From Melioribacter roseus (GTDB lineage: Bacteria > Bacteroidota > Ignavibacteria > Ignavibacteriales > Melioribacteraceae): DNA of 64,000 nt. Location: NCBI GenBank assembly GCA_020722005.1, contig DYLP01000005.1:1-64000 (forward strand). The letters run 5' to 3'. The position numbers and the translations under genes were made by a program. This document shows, piece after piece, positions 7,519-28,804 of the stretch (position 1 is its first letter; each line of letters opens with the position of its first letter). Below the pieces are notes generated by a model. The model was not told where the DNA came from. It saw nothing but the letters and a program-made list of their open reading frames with translations, and did not search any database.

Positions 7519-10500
7519 ATGAAGATTAATCGTATCTTTACAGTCGAGGGTAAAGACCCTTTTGAATCAATAGAGTTTGTAAAACGGACATCCGAAATTA
7601 AAAATCCGGATGGTTCGATTGTCTTCCGCATGGAAGAAGTTACAGTACCTAAAGAATGGTCGCAGGTAGCCACAGATATTATTGCGCAAAAATATTTCAG
7701 AAAAGCAGGAATACCTAAGCTACTAAAGAAAGTAAAAGAAGAAGGGGTGCCGAAGTGGTTACAGCCGTCTGTGCCCGACCCAAAATTAAGTGAATTGCCT
7801 GAAAAAGACAGATTTACATCCGAAACCGACGCACGACAGGTATTTCATCGTCTGGCTGGCACATGGACTTACTGGGGCTGGAAAGCTAAATATTTCGATT
7901 CCGAACAGGATGCAAGGGCATTTTATGACGAGCTGGCATATATGCTGGTAAAACAGTATGCAGCTCCAAATTCGCCACAATGGTTTAACACTGGTTTAAA
8001 CTGGGCATACGGTATTAACGGACCCGCACAAGGTCATTATTATGTCGATTTCCAAACCGGCGAATTAAAGCAATCTGAAGATGCGTATACACACCCACAG
8101 CCGCACGCATGCTTTATTCAATCGATTAAAGACGACCTTGTCAACGAAGGCGGTATTATGGATCTCTGGGTGCGCGAAGCTCGCCTTTTCAAATATGGTT
8201 CTGGTACGGGCACAAACTTTTCTGATATCAGGGGAGTAAATGAACCTCTGAGCGGTGGTGGTAAATCATCCGGTTTAATGTCCTTCCTGAAAATCGGCGA
8301 CCGCTCAGCCGGAGCTATTAAATCAGGCGGGACTACGCGTCGCGCCGCTAAAATGGTAACTCTCGATATCGACCATCCCGATATTGAGGAATATATAAAC
8401 TGGAAAGTTGTAGAAGAACAAAAAGTTGCAGCGCTTGTGGCAGGTTCAAAAATTTGCAATTTTCACTTAAATAACATAATGAAGGCTTGCTACGAAGAAC
8501 ATCCTGAAAACGACCGTTTTAACAAAAGAACAAACTTAAAACTGAGAAAAGCTGTCATCGAAGCACGCAAAGCAAAAGTTCCCGAAAATTATATTGATCG
8601 CGTTATAAAATTAGCCAAGATGGGCTTTCGCTCTATCGAATTTCCAATTTATGATACCGACTGGAATTCGGAAGCATACGCAACAGTTTCAGGGCAGAAT
8701 TCGAATAATTCTGTACGCGTATCAAATGATTTTATGAAAGCTGTTCTGAACGACGACGAATGGAACCTTTACTGGCGTACCGAAAAAAAGAAAGCTGCGA
8801 AAGAAGGGAGAAGACCAGTACCTTGCAAAACATTGAAAGCAAGAGATTTGTGGGATCAAATTGCATACGCCGCCTGGTCGTGTGCCGATCCTGGGTTGCA
8901 ATTCGATACTACAATTAATGAATGGCATACATGTCCTCAAAGCGGAAGGATCAGAGCATCGAATCCGTGCAGCGAATATATGTTCCTCGATGATACGGCT
9001 TGTAATCTGGCGTCTTTGAACCTTGTCCGTTTTTACGACGAAAAAGAACACAAATTTAACATCGAAGCCTATCGGCACGCTGTAAGACTCTGGACAATTG
9101 TGCTGGAAATCAGCGTACTCATGGCTCAATATCCCAGCAAAGAGGTAGCTATAAACAGTTATGAATTCAGAACACTTGGACTGGGTTATGCAAATCTTGG
9201 ATCGTTATTAATGCAGCAGGGAATTCCGTACGACAGTAAAGAAGCCACAGCAATTACAGGCGCATTGACAGCAATTATGCATATGCATGCTTACGCTACT
9301 TCGGCTGAAATGGCAAAAGAATTAGGTACATTCAAGCGTTATTCAGAAAACAAAGAGGATATGCTGAGGGTAATTCGAAATCATCACCGAGCTGCCTATA
9401 ATGTGCCCGCAAAGGAATATGAAGGACTTTCGATAATTCCAATGGGAATTGATCCTGAATATTGTCCTTCCGATTTATTGAAAGCCGCACGTCAGGATGC
9501 CGACCTTGCTCTGAATATGGGCGAGAAATATGGTTTCAGAAATGCTCAGGTCACCGTTATTGCTCCCACTGGCACAATTGGTCTGGTAATGGACTGCGAT
9601 ACAACGGGAATCGAACCCGATTATGCGCTCGTTAAATTCAAAAAACTTGCAGGCGGAGGTTATTTCAAAATTATTAATCAATCGATTCCTCCTGCGCTCA
9701 GAAAACTCGGTTATAACGAAGACCAGATAAAAGAAATTGTAAAATATGCAAAAGGATCTGGCACACTTGAAGGATGCCCGTTTATCAATCATGAATCCTT
9801 GAAAGCCAAAGGATTTACTGAAGAAATTCTGAACAAAATTGAAAATATTCTTCCGTCGGTATTTGAACTTGGCTTTGCATTCAATAAATATACCTTAGGC
9901 GAGAAATTCTTAAAAGAACAGCTCGGTTTTACCGACGAACAAATTAATGACATTGAATTCGATTTGTTGACTGAACTTGGATTTACACGGGAAGAAATTT
10001 CGGCAGCCAATGATTACGTATGCGGTACAATGACTATCGAAGGTGCACCTTTTCTTAAATACGAGCACTATCCCGTTTTCGACTGCGCCAATAAATGTGG
10101 CAAGAGGGGAACACGTTTTATAAAACCGGAGGCTCACATTCGAATGATGGCTGCAGCTCAGCCTTTTATTTCCGGTGCAATTTCCAAAACTATAAATCTG
10201 CCAAACTCGGCTGAAATTGAAGATGTCAAAAATGCTTACATGATGTCGTGGAAGCTCGGATGTAAAGCCAATGCGCTCTATCGCGACGGCTCAAAGCTTT
10301 CACAACCTCTTAATACTATGACCGAAGAGGAAATTGAGGAAATTCTCGAAAAGAAAGAAGAAAACGATATTGTAAAAATTGCAGAAAAAATTATTCACCG
10401 ATATATTGCCAAAAGAAGAAGACTCCCCGACAGAAGAACCGGTTATACTCAAAAAGTAAAAATTAACGGACAATCGGTTTATCTTCGTACGGGAGAATAT

Positions 10501-11097
10501 GAAAATGGACAACTCGGCGAAATTTTTATCGATATGCACAAAGAAGGAGCTGCATTCCGAAGTCTTTTGAATTGCTTTGCCATTTCAATATCGCTCGGTT
10601 TGCAGCACGGCGTTCCTCTCGAAGAATTTGTTGACGCATTTGTATTTACTCGTTTCGAACCGAGCGGTGTTGTAACTGGTCACCGCAGAATTAAAATGGC
10701 GACCTCTGTAATCGATTATATTTTCAGAGAACTTGCTGTAACTTACCTCGGAAGAAACGACCTCGCACATGTCGACGAAGAAGAAGTACCGGGTAATCGG
10801 AAACAAACCGCAGCTTCCTGCCGTACTATTGTCGAAACCGATTATGTCGACGAGGAAGTGGTAAGCGAAAGAATGGTCGAACTCGATAAAAATTCAGAAA
10901 AAGACAATGGCAGATGGACCTCCACTCCTAATGTGGAAGACAAAATTAAAATGATTTCGCGTAATGATCCTGTAGCTAAAGCACGCCAACAGGGATACAC
11001 CGGCGATATTTGCCCCGAATGCCAGAGTATGACTATGGTACGTAACGGAACTTGTTTGAAATGCACTACTTGCGGTGCTACTACCGGCTGCAGTTGA
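7519..11097 (+). CDS. nrdJ: Adenosylcobalamin-dependent (class II) ribonucleoside-diphosphate reductase
   Basis: [67 protein letters not shown] and C-terminal CPECQ...C..C domain. Confidence 0.95.
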
Positions 11098-11242: not shown

Positions 11243-11929
11243 ATGATTGCCGAAAATCTTAAAAATATACTTGATCGAATTGACAGAGTATGCAATCGTT
11301 GCGGGCGCAGTTCAACGGAAATTAAATTAATCGGCGTTTCCAAAACTGTTTCTGAAGAAAGTATTATCGAAGCATATAATGCCGGGCTCAAAGTATTCGG
11401 CGAAAATAAAGCTCAGGAATTAAAAGACAAAGCTGATAATCTTGCCGATTACAACGATATCGAATGGCATTTTATCGGTCATCTGCAGACGAACAAGGTT
11501 AAGTACATTATTGATAAAGCCGAATATATACATTCGGTCGATTCGTTAAAACTTGCTGAAGAAATTGAAAAAAGAGCGCAGAAAATTTCGAAAATCCAGA
11601 ACGTTCTACTTGAAATCAAAACCTCTGAGGAAGTTTCAAAATTCGGATTGACAGATACGGATGAAATCTATCAATTAGCAGAATTTTGTAAAAAATCCGC
11701 CAACTTAAAACTAACGGGTCTAATGACCATTGCTCCTTTTACAGATGACAAAAACATTGTTAGAAATGCATTTATAAATTTGAAAAAGTTAAAAGAAAAA
11801 TTGACTCATGACGGTTTTGAGATGACTGAACTATCGATGGGTATGACGAACGATTTTGAAATTGCAATTGAAGAAGGTGCAACGATGGTACGTATTGGAA
11901 CGGCAATTTTTGGAGAAAGGAGTAAATAA
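11243..11929 (+). CDS. YggS/PLPBP family PLP-dependent protein
   Basis: [72 protein letters not shown]. Confidence 0.95.
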
Positions 11930-11930
11930 A

Positions 11931-12485
11931 ATGAAGTTTACTCCCTACGGCATTAAGAATCAGGAATTTAATAAATCCGTCAGAGGTTACGACCGGGACG
12001 AAGTCAAGGCTTTTTTGGAAAGACTGGCGGATGAATTTGAAAAAATATCAAGTGAAAACGAAAAATTGCAAAAAGAACTCGTGTTGAAGGAGAAACAATT
12101 AACTGAATACAAAAAACTCGAGAAAAATTTGCAGGCAGCGCTGCTGAGTGCCACCGAAACAACATCGAAGGCGGTCGATTCTACCAAAAAGCAAACCGCA
12201 TTAATGATTAAAGAAGCGGAAATTAAAGCTGCACAAATGATCGAAAAAGCAAAAGCAAGCGCCGATGCCTTGAGAGAAGCTATAGTTAAACTGAGAGAAG
12301 AAAAAAAGTTATTGATTTCAAAATTAAAAGCAATGGTCGATACACAATCCAGTCTAATGGAGATGATAGTTAATAAAAATAAAACAATGCCGGATGTTAA
12401 ATTAAAGAGAGAAATAAAAGACGATTCGCAAAAAGAAGAACAAACCGATATTAACATAGACGATATACTGGAGAAGTTGCTATGA
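11931..12485 (+). CDS. DivIVA domain-containing protein
   Basis: [37 protein letters not shown] plus coiled coil; ATG at 11931 preceded by AGGAGTAAATAAA. Confidence 0.88.
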
Positions 12486-13303
12486 GTAAACTTATCGAAA
12501 ATATTAATGAAACTTTGAATGTTATTAAAAAATACACGGATAAGAAATACGAAGTTGGCATTATCTTAGGAACTGGATTGGGCGGTCTGGTGAAAGAAAT
12601 TGAAGTGGAGCATACGATCGACTATGGTGAACTACCTCACTTTCCACTTTCAACGGTAGAGTCGCATCAGGGTAAATTAATCTTCGGCAAAATCGGTAAC
12701 AAAAACGTCGTCGCAATGCAGGGAAGATTTCATTATTACGAAGGATACTCCATGAAACAAATTACTTATCCTGTTCGTGTAATGAAATTCCTCGGAGTTA
12801 AATATTTAATGGTCTCAAATGCATGCGGAGGCATGAATCCTCTTTTCAAAAGAGGAGATATAATGTTGATTGTCGACCATATAAATCTGTTGGGAGACAA
12901 TCCTCTAATCGGTCCAAATGAAGACGAGTTGGGACCGAGATTCCCCGACATGAGCGAACCTTACAGCAGGGAATTAATAAAACTGGCGGAAGAAGCGGCG
13001 CTCAGGAATAAAATACGCATTCAAAAAGGAGTTTATGTGGCTGTGCCCGGACCTAATCTGGAAACGAGAGCCGAATATAGATTTTTGCGAACGATTGGAG
13101 CTGACGTTGTGGGTATGTCTACCATTCCTGAAAATATTGTGGCTAATCACATGGGAATGAAGGTACTGGGTATTAGTATTATCACAGACGAATGTTTTCC
13201 CGAAGCGCTCAAACCTGTATCGTTGAATGAAATACTGGAAGCTGCAAACGAAGCTGAACCAAAAATGACATTGATTATGAAGGAAGTAATTGAAGCAATA
13301 TGA
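12482..13303 (+). CDS. Purine-nucleoside phosphorylase (PNP class I, trimeric type)
   Basis: GIILGTGLGGL, GRFHYYEGYSMKQITYPVRVMKFLGV, SNACGGMNP, GPNLETRAEYRFLRTIGADVVGMSTIPE. Confidence 0.95.
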   Translation: MSKLIENINETLNVIKKYTDKKYEVGIILGTGLGGLVKEIEVEHTIDYGELPHFPLSTVESHQGKLIFGKIGNKNVVAMQGRFHYYEGYSMKQITYPVRVMKFLGVKYLMVSNACGGMNPLFKRGDIMLIVDHINLLGDNPLIGPNEDELGPRFPDMSEPYSRELIKLAEEAALRNKIRIQKGVYVAVPGPNLETRAEYRFLRTIGADVVGMSTIPENIVANHMGMKVLGISIITDECFPEALKPVSLNEILEAANEAEPKMTLIMKEVIEAI

Positions 13304-13914
13304 CAGAAAGAAAAAATATCTATTATGCAACGCCGGGCTTATTGGCTGTAATTATTTTTGCGTCGGATTTCCTGAGTACTGAAATATTCAAGTCGGGTTA
13401 TCAGGATTTTTCGGTGTGGTTTCTTCTCTCGCTCTTTGCATTTGTGTGCGGATGGCTTATTAATAAGACGCTCGGTTATAATCATGGTGGCAAAGTTATT
13501 TTTGCAGTGATAATCTCCGTTTCATTCATAAGCGTGGTTATGATAACGATGTTCAGGGAATATTTCGGCTTGAACGATCTGTTGGTGGAAAACATGATTC
13601 TTTATTTGTTGCGAAACGTTATGCTCGGCTCGATGGCATTATTCGGGATGGTGACGTGTGAACTTTTGATTATGCAGCGCGAAAAAATTGCTTCTTCAAA
13701 AAGCAGGAATGAAATTAAAAATATTCTTGAATCTGCCAAAAGAGAGGCTGATGTTATTATCGACGAAGCAAAAATTGGTGCCGACAAAATTATTTACGAA
13801 GCTCAAAAAACAGCCGACGAAATTATCAGTCGAAAAAATCAGCTCGAAATGCAATTGAAAGAATTAATTACAGCAGAAAAAGAATTAATCAAAAAATACG
13901 AAGCAGAAGAATAG
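13300..13914 (+). CDS. Hypothetical membrane protein with C-terminal coiled coil
   Basis: About four predicted hydrophobic segments, then hendecad-repeat coiled coil; ATGA overlap with PNP. Confidence 0.65.
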   Translation: MTERKNIYYATPGLLAVIIFASDFLSTEIFKSGYQDFSVWFLLSLFAFVCGWLINKTLGYNHGGKVIFAVIISVSFISVVMITMFREYFGLNDLLVENMILYLLRNVMLGSMALFGMVTCELLIMQREKIASSKSRNEIKNILESAKREADVIIDEAKIGADKIIYEAQKTADEIISRKNQLEMQLKELITAEKELIKKYEAEE

Positions 13915-13939: not shown

Positions 13940-16900
13940 ATGTTCAAACAATTTGATGAAAAAATAAGTTACCCTAAAATCGAAGAAAAAATTCTCAAGT
14001 ACTGGAAGGAGAATAAAATATTCGAGAAAAGTATCGAAACAAGAGATAAATATTTTCATTTTACATTTTACGAAGGTCCTCCAACTGTAAACGGAAAGCC
14101 GGGCATTCATCACGTGATGGCACGTACGCTGAAAGACCTCGTCTGTCGTTATAAAACGATGAAAGGATTTCGAATACAACGTAAAGCCGGCTGGGATACT
14201 CATGGTCTGCCTATCGAAATAGCACTTGAAAAAGACCTCGGATTTACTCAAAAGTCGGATATCGAGAAATACGGCGTAGGCAAATTCAACAAAAAGGCAA
14301 AAGAACTCGTTTACCATCATATCGAAATGAAAGAAGGATGGCGAACACTTACTGAAAGAATGGGCTACTGGATTAATCTCGACGACCCGTATATTACATG
14401 TACAAATGAATATATCGAATCGGTATGGTGGGCGTTAGCAGAATATTTTAAAAAGGGATTGATTTACAGGGGCTTCAAGATCGTTCCACAATGTCCACAT
14501 TGCGAAACTCCGCTATCGTCGCACGAACTTGCGCTTGGTTATAAAGATGTACGTGACCCGAATGTTTATGTAAAGTTCAAACTGAAAGACGAGGATGCAT
14601 CAGTACTTGTATGGACAACTACACCGTGGACGCTTATTTCGAACGTAGCTTTAGCAGTTGGAGAAGAGATCGATTATGTCAAAATTAAAACAGAAAACCA
14701 CGGTGTACTCTACCTGGCAAAAGCTCGTCTCTCGGTTATAACCGAAAATTATGAAATACTGGAAGAGCTGAAGGGTAAAGACTTGCTCAACAGAGAATAT
14801 ATTCCGTTATTCAATTACATAAAGGTTAATAAAAGAGCGTGGTATATTATAGCAGGAGATTTTGTGAGTACAGAAGACGGTTCTGGAGTGGTGCATATAG
14901 CTCCTGCTTTCGGCGCTGACGACTATGAAGTTTCTATTAAATACGACCTTCCATTTATTCAACCTGTTACTAAAAACGGTCGTTTTACTGACGAGGTAAC
15001 AGATTTTGCAGGTAGACTGATTAAGTCAATTAAATTTGAAACGCACGAAGAAAGAGGAGTCGATCCGGATATTATAAAAAATCTTAAAGAAAGAGGATTA
15101 ATCTACAGAGCGACAACGGATTATCTTCACTCTTATCCTCATTGCTGGCGGTGCGACAATCCTTTAATTTATTATGCCCGAGACAGCTGGTATATCAGGA
15201 CTACTCAGGTGGCTCAAAGAATGATAGAACTCAACAAAACAATTAACTGGCATCCACCAGAAGTAGGCGCCGGTCGATTTGGAAATTGGCTGGAAGAAAA
15301 TAAAGACTGGTCGCTATCGAGAGATAGATATTGGGGAACTCCGCTTCCAATCTGGATTAACGAAGATGGAGATATGTTTGCCGTTGGCTCAATTGCTGAA
15401 TTGAAGGAAGGCTTTGTAATCAGGGACGGCAAGAAGATAGCTGTCAAAGATTTACCAGCCGAAGAAATCGACCTGCATAAACCGTTTGTGGACGAAATCA
15501 AGTTCGAAAAAGAAGGGAAAATTTATTCCAGAACTCCGGAATTGATCGACGTCTGGTTCGATAGCGGTTCTATGCCCTTTGCACAATTTCATTATCCCTT
15601 CGAAAATAAAGAATGGTTCGAACAAAATTACCCTGCAGATTTTATTTGCGAAGGCATCGATCAAACCCGTGGCTGGTTCTATACTTTGCACGCAATCGGT
15701 ACAATGTTATTCGATAGTATTACTTTTAAGAATGTTATTGTAAATGAACTTGTACTCGATAAAAATGGACTTAAAATGTCCAAATCGAGAGGCAATACAG
15801 TCGATCCATTTGCTTTATTCGAAAAATACGGAGCCGATTCAACCCGATGGTATCTGGTGACCACAAGTCCACCCTGGAAACCAACTTTGTTCGACGAAGA
15901 TGGAATTGTAGAAGTACAGAGAAAGTTTTTCGGAACGCTTGTCAATACATATTCGTTCTTTGCTCTCTATGCGAACATCGACAAATTTACTCATCAAGAA
16001 GACACAATTCCTTACGAAGAACGACCCGAAATCGATAGATGGATTATATCCAAATTGAATGCGCTCGTGGAGGACTACGAAAAATATATGGAAGATTACG
16101 AGGTTACCAAAGCTGCAAGAGCCTTATCGAATTTTACAATCGACCAATTATCCAACTGGTATGTACGGAGGAACAGACGCAGATTCTGGAAATCGGAAAT
16201 CAATAAAAATAAATTGTCGGCTTATCAAACGCTTTATGAATGTTTACTTACCGTTTCGAAATTAACAGCTCCATTTGCTCCCTTTATAGCCGAAGAAATA
16301 TATCTAAATTTGAATTCAGTAACGAAGAAAGAAGAGTTTGAATCGGTACATCTGGCATATTATCCAAAATCGGGTTACAGAGACAAAACGCTCGAAATAA
16401 AAATGGACGTAGCTCAGAGAGTTGTTTATCTGGCGCGTTCAATCAGAGCAAAAAATAATCTTAAAGTACGTCAACCGCTACAGAAGATGATGGTCTATGT
16501 CGATAGAGATTTACGTGATGCACTCGCTAAAATGAAAGATGTTGTTCTTGAAGAGGTTAATATCAAGGAAATGGTAATTCTCGAAGACGACGCCGGCATA
16601 GTAAACAAAAGCGCCAAACCGAATTTCAAAACCATCGGTCCAAAATTTGGAAAACTCGTAAAGAAATTGGCTGAAAAAATTAAAGAACTCGATAAAGAGT
16701 CGATTACACTCATTGAAAAAGGAAAAACAGTTGAGATTGACGTCGATGGTGAACACGTTTCGGTTGGTAAGGAAGACGTGGAAATTGTAAGCAGCGAGAT
16801 TGAAGGCTGGCTCGTGGAGTCGGAAGAAGGAGTAACCGTTGCAATTGATACTGAACTGACAGAGGAACTTATTGCAGAAGGGTATGTAAGAGAATTCGTC

Positions 16901-17131
16901 AATAGAGTTCAGAACATGAGAAAAGATCTCGACTTCGAGGTAACCGACAGAATCGATCTTTATGTTGACGGCGACGAAAAGTTAATTAAATATTTGAGCG
17001 ATTTTAACGATTATATTTCAAATGAAGTTCTTGCAAGAACAATTAAATTTAATTCTGAAGGCGGTAGTGTTCAGGAATGGGAATTGGGTGATTACAAGTG
17101 CAAGATCGGTATTGAAAAAGCAATAACTTAG
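13940..17131 (+). CDS. ileS: Isoleucyl-tRNA synthetase, type 2 (IleRS2-like)
   Basis: GPPTVNGKPGIHHVMARTLKD, GWDTHGLPIE, KMSKSRGN, C-terminal type-2-like NRVQNMRKDLDFEVTDRIDLY. Confidence 0.95.
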   Translation: MFKQFDEKISYPKIEEKILKYWKENKIFEKSIETRDKYFHFTFYEGPPTVNGKPGIHHVMARTLKDLVCRYKTMKGFRIQRKAGWDTHGLPIEIALEKDLGFTQKSDIEKYGVGKFNKKAKELVYHHIEMKEGWRTLTERMGYWINLDDPYITCTNEYIESVWWALAEYFKKGLIYRGFKIVPQCPHCETPLSSHELALGYKDVRDPNVYVKFKLKDEDASVLVWTTTPWTLISNVALAVGEEIDYVKIKTENHGVLYLAKARLSVITENYEILEELKGKDLLNREYIPLFNYIKVNKRAWYIIAGDFVSTEDGSGVVHIAPAFGADDYEVSIKYDLPFIQPVTKNGRFTDEVTDFAGRLIKSIKFETHEERGVDPDIIKNLKERGLIYRATTDYLHSYPHCWRCDNPLIYYARDSWYIRTTQVAQRMIELNKTINWHPPEVGAGRFGNWLEENKDWSLSRDRYWGTPLPIWINEDGDMFAVGSIAELKEGFVIRDGKKIAVKDLPAEEIDLHKPFVDEIKFEKEGKIYSRTPELIDVWFDSGSMPFAQFHYPFENKEWFEQNYPADFICEGIDQTRGWFYTLHAIGTMLFDSITFKNVIVNELVLDKNGLKMSKSRGNTVDPFALFEKYGADSTRWYLVTTSPPWKPTLFDEDGIVEVQRKFFGTLVNTYSFFALYANIDKFTHQEDTIPYEERPEIDRWIISKLNALVEDYEKYMEDYEVTKAARALSNFTIDQLSNWYVRRNRRRFWKSEINKNKLSAYQTLYECLLTVSKLTAPFAPFIAEEIYLNLNSVTKKEEFESVHLAYYPKSGYRDKTLEIKMDVAQRVVYLARSIRAKNNLKVRQPLQKMMVYVDRDLRDALAKMKDVVLEEVNIKEMVILEDDAGIVNKSAKPNFKTIGPKFGKLVKKLAEKIKELDKESITLIEKGKTVEIDVDGEHVSVGKEDVEIVSSEIEGWLVESEEGVTVAIDTELTEELIAEGYVREFVNRVQNMRKDLDFEVTDRIDLYVDGDEKLIKYLSDFNDYISNEVLARTIKFNSEGGSVQEWELGDYKCKIGIEKAIT

Positions 17132-17144
17132 TAACGGAGGAAAC

Positions 17145-17843
17145 ATGGCAAAGAAACAGACTCAAAAGAAGAGTTCTGCCAATTCAAAAAAAACGTCAAG
17201 CAGGAGCGCTAAAACGAAAAAAACTGTCTCGGCTGCTTCAAAAAAGAAGACGCTCGATAAAAAGGCGGCAACTAAAACTTCGAAAAAAGCAACAATCAAG
17301 AGAAACGTTGCTTCGAAGAAAGCTAATGTTGAAACAAAGACAAAGAAGAAAGTCCCGAAAACTACGGAGCAAGAAAAAATGAGATCTGAAAATAAAGTTG
17401 AAATAATGTCCCCAACCAAAAGAATAAGAAAAATTCAAGGATATTCGAAAGCTGAACTCGAAGAATTCAAACAAATTATTCTTCAAAAAAGAAATGAAAT
17501 AATCGAACAGCTTCAGACTCTTAAAGAACAAATGATGGATCCAACTACGGGTCAATACGTAAATGAAAATTCGCCTTATTCGCTTCACATGGCAGAGCAG
17601 GGAACCGACGCCATGGAACGAGAAAAACTCTATCTCTGGGCTCAGCGCGAAAACAAATTTTTGGGCTACCTCGACGAAGCTTTACAAAGAATCGAAGATG
17701 GAACTTACGGCATCTGCATCGAGTGCATTGACGAGCCGAAGCATCTTTGCCCAACATGTCCATTGATTCCTAAAGAAAGACTAAAAGCTGTGCCACATAC
17801 CCAGCATTGCTTACAGGTAAAACAAAAAATGCAATCCAAATAA
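17145..17843 (+). CDS. TraR/DksA-family C4 zinc-finger protein with Lys/Ala-rich N-terminal tail
   Basis: EAL.RIEDGTYGICIEC...IPKERLKAVPHTQHC; about 85-residue K/A/S/T-rich N-terminal extension. Confidence 0.88.
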   Translation: MAKKQTQKKSSANSKKTSSRSAKTKKTVSAASKKKTLDKKAATKTSKKATIKRNVASKKANVETKTKKKVPKTTEQEKMRSENKVEIMSPTKRIRKIQGYSKAELEEFKQIILQKRNEIIEQLQTLKEQMMDPTTGQYVNENSPYSLHMAEQGTDAMEREKLYLWAQRENKFLGYLDEALQRIEDGTYGICIECIDEPKHLCPTCPLIPKERLKAVPHTQHCLQVKQKMQSK

Positions 17844-17858
17844 TTTACGGAATATTAA

Positions 17859-18515
17859 GTGAAAGCACTTTATGTAACTTTGTCGGTAATAGTAATTGAC
17901 CAGATAACTAAATTAATCGTAAAGGGAATGTCGATCCCCTTTTTGAATCTACATTTCCAAGGCATGTCGTATGGCGAAAGTATCAACGTAATTGGTGATT
18001 TTTTTAAGATAACTTTTGTTGAAAATCCCGGTCTGGCATTTGGAATCGACGTAAATAGTAGTGCTAAACTATTTCTTTCGATCTTTTCTTTAATTGCCAG
18101 TGTTGGAATCTTCTATTATTTGTATAAATCGAAACACCAGAAACTAGTTGTACGTGCTGCTCTTGCTTTGATACTTGGTGGTGCTATCGGTAATTTAATA
18201 GACCGCACGTTTTACGGTGTTATTTATGGGTACGCACCAATATTTTACGGCAGAGTAGTCGACTTTTTCAACGTCGATTTCTTTGACTTTACAATTTTGG
18301 GAAGGACGTATGATCGCTGGCCTATTTTTAATATTGCGGATGCATCTGTTACGATAGGTGTAATTTTGCTGGTAATCTTTCATAGTAATGTAAAAGAGGA
18401 CGTTCAGATAAAGCAAGCAACCGATTCAGATGAGAGAGTAAAAAAATATGATGAACTATCGACAATAAACCTGTCTGTGGCTGATGTCAAGGATAGTAAC
18501 AGAAAAGAAAATTAG
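17859..18515 (+). CDS. lspA: Lipoprotein signal peptidase (signal peptidase II)
   Basis: VIDQITKLIVKG, FVENPGLAFGI, GGAIGNLIDRTFYG, GRVVDFF, FNIADASVTIGV; GTG start. Confidence 0.93.
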   Translation: MKALYVTLSVIVIDQITKLIVKGMSIPFLNLHFQGMSYGESINVIGDFFKITFVENPGLAFGIDVNSSAKLFLSIFSLIASVGIFYYLYKSKHQKLVVRAALALILGGAIGNLIDRTFYGVIYGYAPIFYGRVVDFFNVDFFDFTILGRTYDRWPIFNIADASVTIGVILLVIFHSNVKEDVQIKQATDSDERVKKYDELSTINLSVADVKDSNRKEN

Positions 18516-19470
18516 GTTTGAAATACCTCCGGGCAAAAAAAAAGAAAGAATAGACGTATTTCTATCAAATTCAGTCGAACATTCCACTCGATCCAAAATT
18601 CAGAAATTAATTAAAGCTGAACTCGTCTTGGTAAACGCTAGAATTGTTAAAGCCAATTATCTTGTTAACCCTGGAGATATTATTGACATAACAATTCCGA
18701 TTTCTCCTCGCCCTGAAGAAACAATTCCGGAGGAAATTCCGCTGGATATTGTCTACGAAGATGAATATTTATTGATTGTAAATAAGCCGGCTGGAATGGT
18801 AACGCATCCTGCATTTGGCAATTACACGGGTACGCTTGTAAATGCTTTGCTTGCTTATACGAATAAATTAAGTCAGTTGAACGACAAAGGAAGGCCGGGA
18901 ATAGTTCATCGGCTTGATAAAAACACAAGCGGACTTCTCCTGATTGCCAAAGACGAATGGACACATGCCCAACTGGCAAAGCAATTTTCCTCGCATACCA
19001 TCGATAGGGAATACTGGGCGGTATGTTGGGGATTATTTAAAGAAAAAAAAGGTGAAGTAATCGGAAATATCGCGCGGTCAACGAAGGACAGAAAAAAATT
19101 TGCCGTAACTGAAAATCAAGGGAAATATGCCCATACTTTTTATGAAGTCATTGAAGAATATGATTTTGCATCGCTTGTAAAATTAAGATTGAAAACTGGC
19201 AGAACGCACCAAATTAGAGTGCATATGTCGTATATAAACCATCCCATCTTTGGCGATCCTACATATGGCGGTAGAAAAATTGTATATGGTGCAGAACTTC
19301 CAAAAATGAAAAGCAGGGTGGAAAATCTCTTGAATATTATGGAGCGCCAGGCACTTCACGCTAAAACGCTTGGATTTATTCATCCACATACTAAAGAAAA
19401 AATGTTTTTCACCTCCGAGTTAACGGAAGATTTTCAATTGCTTTTGCAAAAACTTAAAAATGAATCCTAA
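18484..19470 (+). CDS. RluA-family pseudouridine synthase with S4 domain
   Basis: GRPGIVHRLDKNTSGLLLIAKDE, LKTGRTHQIRVHMSYINHPIFGDPTYGG; exact start uncertain because it overlaps lspA. Confidence 0.93.
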   Translation: MSRIVTEKKIRFEIPPGKKKERIDVFLSNSVEHSTRSKIQKLIKAELVLVNARIVKANYLVNPGDIIDITIPISPRPEETIPEEIPLDIVYEDEYLLIVNKPAGMVTHPAFGNYTGTLVNALLAYTNKLSQLNDKGRPGIVHRLDKNTSGLLLIAKDEWTHAQLAKQFSSHTIDREYWAVCWGLFKEKKGEVIGNIARSTKDRKKFAVTENQGKYAHTFYEVIEEYDFASLVKLRLKTGRTHQIRVHMSYINHPIFGDPTYGGRKIVYGAELPKMKSRVENLLNIMERQALHAKTLGFIHPHTKEKMFFTSELTEDFQLLLQKLKNES

Positions 19471-26193: not shown

Positions 26194-26982
26194 ATGGAAA
26201 ATAAACTCAGCATGGAACAGGTATTTGAAAAATTAGGGGACTTAAAACAGTTTTTTATATTCGGTCAAAAAATTGTTCCCCTCTTCAAAAAAATAATCGA
26301 TTTTATGACCGACATAGTTCCACTACTTGAAAATGTAAACAATTCAATACAGGATACCACAAGTAAAATTCCAAAAGCTGCTCATCAAATTAACAGCGTT
26401 ACAAGTGCAACTGAAATTGCTACCAGTGAAATACTCGATATTGTGGATTCAATGTCGAATGATATGACAAAAATAAAAAATGAATTGAGCGATTTAAAAA
26501 ATGGATTCCTCAATCAAAGAGTAGCCCTCGATGCGTTTGCACAAAAAGTTCCTGCTTCGAGCGAAACGCTGGAAGAGTTGAAATCTAATTTAAGTATCGA
26601 CGAGCTGGAAAGTAAAGTTATTTCGCTCGAGGAAGTTATTAATAAAATCGAATTGGATGCTACAAACATTACGATTTCCTTGCAGGTACAGGATATAACG
26701 GCTCAGCAACTTGCTTCTGTTAATCATCTTATCCATTCTGTACAGGAAAAATTATCTTCGTTGATGGTCGATTTTAATAAACAGGAAGGATTTGTTTTGC
26801 TCGATACAGAAACTCCAAAAGTTGACCCCAAAGTATTTAATCCCAATGCTAAGTACGACAGAAGCGAAGCTCATCAATCTGTTGCCGACCAACTAATTGA
26901 GCAGGCAAAAAGAAATAATAACGACAATGGAAATAAAACGTCGCAGGAAGAAATAGACAAACTTTTTCGGAACAATGGCTGA
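26194..26982 (+). CDS. cheZ: CheZ-like CheY-P phosphatase
   Basis: Coiled coil with SLQVQDITAQQL (cf. CheZ QDLTGQ with catalytic D/Q) and C-terminal SQEEIDKLF peptide; between cheY and cheA. Confidence 0.75.
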   Translation: MENKLSMEQVFEKLGDLKQFFIFGQKIVPLFKKIIDFMTDIVPLLENVNNSIQDTTSKIPKAAHQINSVTSATEIATSEILDIVDSMSNDMTKIKNELSDLKNGFLNQRVALDAFAQKVPASSETLEELKSNLSIDELESKVISLEEVINKIELDATNITISLQVQDITAQQLASVNHLIHSVQEKLSSLMVDFNKQEGFVLLDTETPKVDPKVFNPNAKYDRSEAHQSVADQLIEQAKRNNNDNGNKTSQEEIDKLFRNNG

Positions 26983-28804
26983 TATAACACAAAATCCAAT
27001 GCTCGTAGATCCGGAGATGAAAGAAATTGTCGACAGCTTTTTGCTGGAGACAAAAGAAATTCTTGAAAATCTCGATGTCGACTTGATGGAACTCGAAAAG
27101 TCTCCCGAGGAGCTTGACCTCCTGAACAAAATTTTCAGATCTTTTCATACCATCAAAGGAACCTCCGGCTTTTTAGGACTCGAAAAATTACCGGAAGTCA
27201 CGCATAAATGCGAAGATATCTTAAATAAGTTAAGAAAAGGGGAAGCTAAACTTACCACCGAATTGATGGACGGTATCCTCCTTGGATTCGATACGATCAA
27301 AGAATTGCTCGTGAAAATTGAGAATGATAAAAACGAAGACGTAGATATAACTAATGTAATCAATGTTTTGCAAGGCCTTCTTGCTGTCTTAAATTCGGAT
27401 GGTACTCCGAACGAAACCTCCAGCCCTTCCGAAACAAAGGGAAAAAATTCAAGTATTCCTACGGAACAGACAGCCACAGAGGAGGAAAACAACGCTACTT
27501 CTGCAGATGGTAATAATCAAAAAACTGACGAAACGGTAGAGACTGCCCAACAGAAAAAAGTTGCAATACCGAAAGCAACTCCAAAATCGGAGTCCAAGAA
27601 AACAGACAATACAATTCGTGTCGAAGTTGAACGCCTGGATGCACTCTTAAATATAGCGTCGGAGCTGGTATTGGGACGGAACAGACTGACGCAGGTCAAC
27701 AATCAATTCGCTTTGGAGTATGAAGGCACTAACTACGCAAAAGACCTTGCCGACGCCACCAAGCAAATCGACCTTATGACTACAGAGTTGCAGCTTGTGG
27801 TAATGAAACTGAGAATGATTAAAATTGGTAAAGTCTTCAATCGATTTCCACGTTTGGTCAGGGATCTGTGCAAAGAATTAAATAAAGAAGTGGAATTGAA
27901 AATCTTTGGCGAGGATACCGAAGTAGATAAAAATCTGATCGAAGAAATTAACGACCCTCTTGTTCACCTGATTCGTAATGCCGTCGATCATGGAGTAGAA
28001 AAGCCAGAGGTTCGCAAAGCTGCTGGTAAGCCGCCTACGGGAACGGTTATCCTTTCGGCTGACCACGAAGGCAACAATATCGTAATTACAATCGAAGACG
28101 ACGGGAAAGGAATCGATCCCGAAGTGATAAAAGATAAAGCAATTAAGAAAGGATTCCTTGCTCCCGAAAGAGCTAAAGAACTCTCCAAACAGGAAGCTTA
28201 TAATTTGATTTTCCACCCCGGGTTTTCGACCGCTGAACAGGTCAGTAATGTCTCCGGTCGAGGAGTGGGAATGGATGTGGTTAAAACGAATGTAACAAAA
28301 CTAAGAGGAACAATTGCTGTAGAATCTGAAGTCGGAAAAGGAACGAAAATCATATTACGTCTTCCCTTAACGCTTGCAATTATATCCGGCATGATTGTGG
28401 AAGCCTGTGGTCAAAAATTAGTAATCCCACTCCATTCCGTTATTGAAGTTATCAGGGTAAATAAAGAACAAATCGAAACCATAAGGGGCAAAGAGGTAAT
28501 CAATCTGAGGGATACAGTTTTACCAATTATTGGCCTCGACGAATTAATCAATCATTCGAGCAACGGCAACGGCAAAGAGAAGCAATGGCAATATATCGTT
28601 GAAGTGGGAATTGCCGAAAAGAGATTTGGTATTAAAGTAGATAACCTCGTCGGTCAGCAGGAGGTGGTAATTAAATCGCTCGGAAATTATCTCGGTAAAA
28701 TTGATGGCATTGCAGGTTCAACGATTATGGGGGACGGCACCGTTGTCATCATTCTTGATATTAACGAATTATTCAATAAAATGGAAAAACGGTTAGATGC
28801 ATAA
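26975..28804 (+). CDS. cheA: Chemotaxis histidine kinase CheA
   Basis: Hpt FRSFHTIKGTSGFLGL, NDPLVHLIRNAVDHGVE, GRGVGMDVVKTNV, C-terminal CheW-like domain. Confidence 0.96.
   Translation: MADITQNPMLVDPEMKEIVDSFLLETKEILENLDVDLMELEKSPEELDLLNKIFRSFHTIKGTSGFLGLEKLPEVTHKCEDILNKLRKGEAKLTTELMDGILLGFDTIKELLVKIENDKNEDVDITNVINVLQGLLAVLNSDGTPNETSSPSETKGKNSSIPTEQTATEEENNATSADGNNQKTDETVETAQQKKVAIPKATPKSESKKTDNTIRVEVERLDALLNIASELVLGRNRLTQVNNQFALEYEGTNYAKDLADATKQIDLMTTELQLVVMKLRMIKIGKVFNRFPRLVRDLCKELNKEVELKIFGEDTEVDKNLIEEINDPLVHLIRNAVDHGVEKPEVRKAAGKPPTGTVILSADHEGNNIVITIEDDGKGIDPEVIKDKAIKKGFLAPERAKELSKQEAYNLIFHPGFSTAEQVSNVSGRGVGMDVVKTNVTKLRGTIAVESEVGKGTKIILRLPLTLAIISGMIVEACGQKLVIPLHSVIEVIRVNKEQIETIRGKEVINLRDTVLPIIGLDELINHSSNGNGKEKQWQYIVEVGIAEKRFGIKVDNLVGQQEVVIKSLGNYLGKIDGIAGSTIMGDGTVVIILDINELFNKMEKRLDA

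Follow-up and report, generated by a model that had tools for sequence, protein, structure and literature searches.

The window analysed here is a stretch of 64,000 nucleotides of Melioribacter roseus DNA, and the open reading frame at 13940-17131 on its forward strand, which begins with an ATG start codon, is ileS. The features discussed below are collected in Table 1. The surroundings of ileS are a housekeeping neighbourhood. The order ileS, DksA/TraR and lspA is also found in Riemerella, and the order divIVA, ileS and DksA/TraR in Bacillus velezensis. An RNA leader or T-box upstream of ileS was looked for and rejected: the window gave no Rfam match, and neither gene end showed inverted repeats.

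Elsewhere, the window carries a B12-dependent (class II) ribonucleotide reductase of 1192 residues (7519-11097; NF005736, 2041 bits). A CheA-like kinase (26975-28804) lies ahead of a long one-strand gene run (31645-62780) that includes flagellar FliF, FliK, FlgE-like, FlhB, FlhA (FHIPEP), FlhF, FlgI and FlgK.

Table 1. Coordinates of ileS, its sequence features and the neighbouring genes in the window.
Feature	Position	Strand	Basis
YggS-family PLP protein, upstream	11243..11929	+	TIGR00044 221 bits
DivIVA, upstream (printed ORF start overlaps the preceding gene)	11856..12485	+	PF05103 101 bits
Purine-nucleoside phosphorylase, upstream	12482..13303	+	NF006054 382 bits
204-aa protein directly upstream of ileS, without Pfam match	13300..13914	+	Pfam search
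ileS, type 2 isoleucyl-tRNA synthetase (IleRS2), 1063 aa	13940..17131	+	TIGR00392, Pfam, PmIleRS2 structures
Swapped class I signature GIHH, residues 55-58, replacing HXGH	14102..14113	+	codons, phmmer alignment
Adenine-loop residues N602-E603-L604	15743..15751	+	alignment
Intact KMSKS, residues 612-616	15773..15787	+	translation, alignment
C-terminal domain PF19302 (DUF5915), residues 866-1060	16535..17119	+	217 bits
DksA/TraR-type C4 zinc-finger protein, downstream (below curated cut-offs)	17145..17843	+	PF01258 21 bits, TIGR02890 72 bits
LspA, signal peptidase II, downstream	17859..18515	+	PF01252 124 bits; TIGR00077 above cut-off
RluD-type S4-domain pseudouridine synthase, downstream	18484..19470	+	PF00849, PF01479

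Type and copy number of the synthetase

The ileS product scores 958.6 bits with TIGR00392, the equivalog model for IleRS, and passes its cut-off of 621.4; Pfam matches to tRNA-synt_1, Anticodon_1 and DUF5915 are also present. The last is the type 2 C-terminal domain, found here instead of a zinc-binding C-terminus. In phmmer comparisons the protein scores 930-936 bits with the structures of Priestia megaterium IleRS2 (PmIleRS2), the alignment extending to residue 1036, 841 bits with Thermus IleRS2 (TtIleRS2), and 650-723 bits with eukaryotic cytoplasmic IleRS, whereas the scores with IleRS1 structures, 278-363 bits, are far under those with IleRS2. A maximum-likelihood (ML) tree splits it from IleRS1 with a support of 100/100. 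The first-pass annotation had described the C-terminus as IleRS2-like, and both the position of DUF5915 and the higher bit scores with IleRS2 bear this out.

The genome holding the window measures 2.66 Mb and is 99.35% complete. The window ileS is its single TIGR00392 match above the cut-off; the other matches are weaker, partial and under the cut-off, as is expected of related class I synthetases. The search for another ileS that the same annotation had proposed thus revealed no second full-length IleRS by this profile in the 99.35% complete genome. Its reading of the gene as the housekeeping copy holds, since it is the only IleRS of the genome and lies among housekeeping genes. The window ileS is the sole, essential, type 2 IleRS of this genome, with a housekeeping role.

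The signature motif and its published counterparts

The codon of residue 55 starts at 14102 (13940+162), and the codons GGC ATT CAT CAC at 14102-14113 encode G55, I56, H57 and H58 within EGPPTVNGKPGIHHVMARTLKDL. GIHH had been reported in place of the expected HIGH at exactly these positions, with KMSKS intact, and both observations are confirmed. An alignment to characterised IleRS1 and IleRS2 had been suggested as a check. In the phmmer alignment to PmIleRS2, of which two of the four chains were displayed residue by residue, the motif stretch is aligned gap-free and in register, residue for residue, with NGLPHVGHALGRT in 8c8v, which has the wild-type motif, and with NGLPGVHHALGRT in 8c8w, the GVHH mutant; the type is IleRS2. 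The swapped motif is natural in the window protein and engineered in 8c8w. With Gly first and His third in register and an intact KMSKS, the window IleRS carries the sequence features of a G/AXHH IleRS2.

Brkic et al. found G/AXHH in 86 of 163 IleRS2 sequences and never in IleRS1 (2023; PMC10485003). Its presence increases the Ki for mupirocin by a factor of about 170 to 800, giving values of 35 uM-6.6 mM, with retention of catalysis (PMC10485003). Conversion of the ALHH of D. radiodurans IleRS2 to HVGH lowered the Ki 823-fold, from 6.6 mM to 8.1 uM, and GVHH put into the IleRS2 of Thermus and P. megaterium gave Ki values of 35 uM and 460 uM, respectively, with kcat of 6-7 per second (PMC10485003). 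GXHH engineered into IleRS1 yielded inactive enzyme (PMC10485003). The IleRS2 structures reveal a shifted motif, in which the third His can substitute for the first and leaves the adenine undisturbed, while mupirocin would clash (PMC10485003). A separate second origin of the G/AXHH motif was also reported (PMC10485003). The name “Bacteroidota” is absent from the main text of that paper. The first-pass annotation had pointed to published work that links the swap to extreme mupirocin tolerance with catalysis kept; this work exists and says so (PMC10485003). The swap and its meaning for mupirocin are therefore already published, and the window IleRS provides no new mechanism. By analogy with the assayed enzymes, we strongly infer that the window IleRS itself would be hyper-resistant to mupirocin.

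The swapped protein could instead be a non-catalytic or specialised paralogue, with tRNA-Ile charged by another enzyme, as other class I synthetases become about 1000-fold slower when the first His is mutated (quoted in PMC10485003). We consider this extremely improbable: the genome is without a second IleRS, KMSKS is intact, and published assays of G/AXHH IleRS2 found activity, with kcat of 6-45 per second (PMC10485003).

Distribution of the motif

The window belongs to the Ignavibacteria, on the Melioribacteraceae side. Relatives at 75-80% identity are found in Ignavibacteriales, Melioribacter and Stygiobacter genomes, and a long homologue is present in 28 of the 29 genomes of the relatives search, the exception being G004. 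A same-genus genome encodes a protein that is 94% identical and carries the same motif. Across the phylum, a loose DNA pattern for the motif region, which allows G/D/E/H/Q/R at both exchanged positions and so admits non-GXHH sequences, matches 296 of 297 genomes, whereas the canonical HXGH pattern matches none of the 297 genomes of this sample. Among the loose-pattern matches listed, about 150 or roughly half of all, every one is GXHH save one that arose by chance at another site of genome G185. Reading the residues around the motif in 140 IleRS proteins gave GXHH for 130 (113 GIHH, 11 GLHH, 5 GVHH and 1 GMHH); the ten HXGH rows are without exception from records of plasmids, phages or viral contigs, and none belongs to a genome of the phylum. 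The presence of the motif in the same-genus genome and in 130 of the 140 IleRS read means that GIHH is neither a chance occurrence nor a sequencing error.

An ML tree of 38 IleRS places every GXHH row on the same side of a single branch, which has a support of 91/89 and occurs in 92% of bootstrap trees; this support is not decisive, and a very long branch, L154, sits at the base of the group. The clostridial sequence L144 adjoins the phylum, and HXGH IleRS2 lie outside. The tree contains no actinobacterial or Deinococcus sequences and is thus silent on the second origin of the motif (PMC10485003). From the absence of HXGH in the 297 genomes, the loose motif in 296 of them and GXHH in every IleRS read from the phylum, it follows that GXHH has been inherited by the lineage as a whole, and is neither an acquired resistance gene nor a peculiarity of one genome.

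An origin as an acquired mupirocin-resistance gene, either MupA/MupB-like or brought in by a mobile element, has also been weighed. MupA and MupB are IleRS2 enzymes, their NCBIfam models match the window protein at 882 and 876 bits, and plasmids do carry IleRS2 genes. These scores are, however, far under the exception cut-off of 1900, so that neither model assigns the protein to its family, and the plasmid and phage collections contain no match of at least 60% identity. Absence of this ileS from the nearest relatives, or HXGH at their corresponding locus, would have favoured acquisition; instead they carry ileS with the swapped motif. With the gene being the only IleRS, flanked by housekeeping neighbours and with orthologues throughout the phylum, the likelihood of acquisition is close to nil.

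Three other records deserve mention. Genome G139, a member of the phylum, has two stretches with GIHH IleRS motifs on separate contigs (L162, C1; L163, C10). As the latter contig measures just 5.6 kb, its stretch may represent either a gene duplication or contaminating DNA. A 430-kb viral contig (IMGVR_UViG_3300044796_000657; L154:4204-7041) encodes a 945-aa IleRS2-like protein with GIHH; nearby lie a tRNA-Leu, RtcB, NAD synthetase and what by eye resembles a glutamate dehydrogenase. A terminase match was found on this contig and a ribosomal protein S12 match was not, which suggests a huge phage that encodes a motif-swapped IleRS of its own. The Pseudoalteromonas plasmid pTML1 (L147) carries an IleRS2 with an unusual HHGH and with KMSKRLRN in place of KMSKSxGN, which we take to be the self-resistance gene of a thiomarinol producer.

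The adenine loop was also compared. Leu604 aligns with His582 of PmIleRS2, the equivalent of Phe586 in PmIleRS1. As a compensating marker of the swap it was rejected, as Thermus IleRS2, which has HVGH, likewise has Leu. Asn is present at position 602 in 117 of 122 GXHH rows and in one of ten HXGH rows, the latter mostly having Leu, His or Thr; the rows are non-independent and include near-duplicates, and the association is confounded by shared ancestry. Exceptions occur both ways, with T, H or L beside GXHH and N beside the HHGH of the pTML1 enzyme. Asn602 is common with GXHH but neither exclusive to it nor independent of ancestry, and was rejected as a marker of the swap as well. As a second site accompanying the swap it may be regarded as a lead and not as a finding.

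Interpretation and comparison with known systems

The window ileS very probably encodes the sole, essential IleRS2 of an ignavibacterium, with GXHH fixed early in the phylum and an expected mupirocin Ki in the high-micromolar to millimolar range. Sequence, register, type, sole copy, context and phylum distribution are observed, while catalysis and hyper-resistance would carry over by analogy from other IleRS2. The proposed course begins with early fixation of the GXHH form of the signature in the phylum (Bacteroidota in the broad sense). By homology, H57, the third motif residue, would act in the transition state where the first His normally does. IleRS2 can accommodate the swap because the tip of helix alpha1 lies farther from the adenine than in IleRS1, with a displacement of ~1.7 A at the third residue of the motif. 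H57 should also collide with mupirocin, which would lift the Ki to the range given above. How large the effect is varies with the enzyme background, since the swap alone gives only 35 uM in Thermus IleRS2, and the natural non-canonical enzymes with measured values (S. griseus; D. radiodurans, ALHH) all come from outside this phylum. Intrinsic tolerance would then belong to the lineage as such and would not point to recent selection by mupirocin.

The swap might also be neutral or have been fixed for another cause, such as the adenine loop or ATP handling, with mupirocin tolerance as an accidental by-product. Fixation in the whole phylum sample and the bias toward Asn602 are in its favour, but the loop difference carries the confounding and exceptions described above, and we find this possible though rather unlikely. 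It is compatible with hyper-resistance and differs from the main explanation, early fixation in a sole housekeeping IleRS2, only in the cause of fixation. A narrower proposal, for which we see a small chance, is that the swap was fixed a single time, in an ancient ancestor of Bacteroidota and of the clostridial branch related to them, together with an adenine-loop change from L/H/T-G to N-[EDG], an undescribed second-site adjustment that would let the third His work. If true, mupirocin resistance would be a side effect.

Throughout the phylum, the housekeeping IleRS normally has the GXHH form already described in the literature, and intrinsic mupirocin tolerance is therefore to be expected there. 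Resistome scans that call such an ileS acquired resistance would mislead.

The G/AXHH IleRS2 of D. radiodurans (ALHH) and S. griseus (PMC10485003) share with the window IleRS the type 2 class, the exchange of first and third residues, the intact KMSKS and the housekeeping role, and no material sequence difference was found. The IleRS2 of Priestia megaterium (PDB 8c8u/8c8v/8c8w/8c9d) is a full-length homologue (about 930 bits) whose mutant 8c8w has GVHH; its wild type has HVGH, and its residue 582 is His in contrast to Leu604. Thermus thermophilus IleRS2 (1ile, 1jzq, 1jzs) has the same type 2 fold and Leu at the position of L604 but differs in its HVGH motif and a Ki of 0.2 uM. Staphylococcal MupA and MupB are likewise type 2 and linked to mupirocin resistance; they are acquired second copies, however, and the window protein reaches under half of either cut-off. 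IleRS1 (S. aureus 1ffy/1qu2, P. megaterium 8c9e) catalyses the same reaction with a shared catalytic core, but has HXGH only, is mupirocin-sensitive and scores far lower against the window IleRS.
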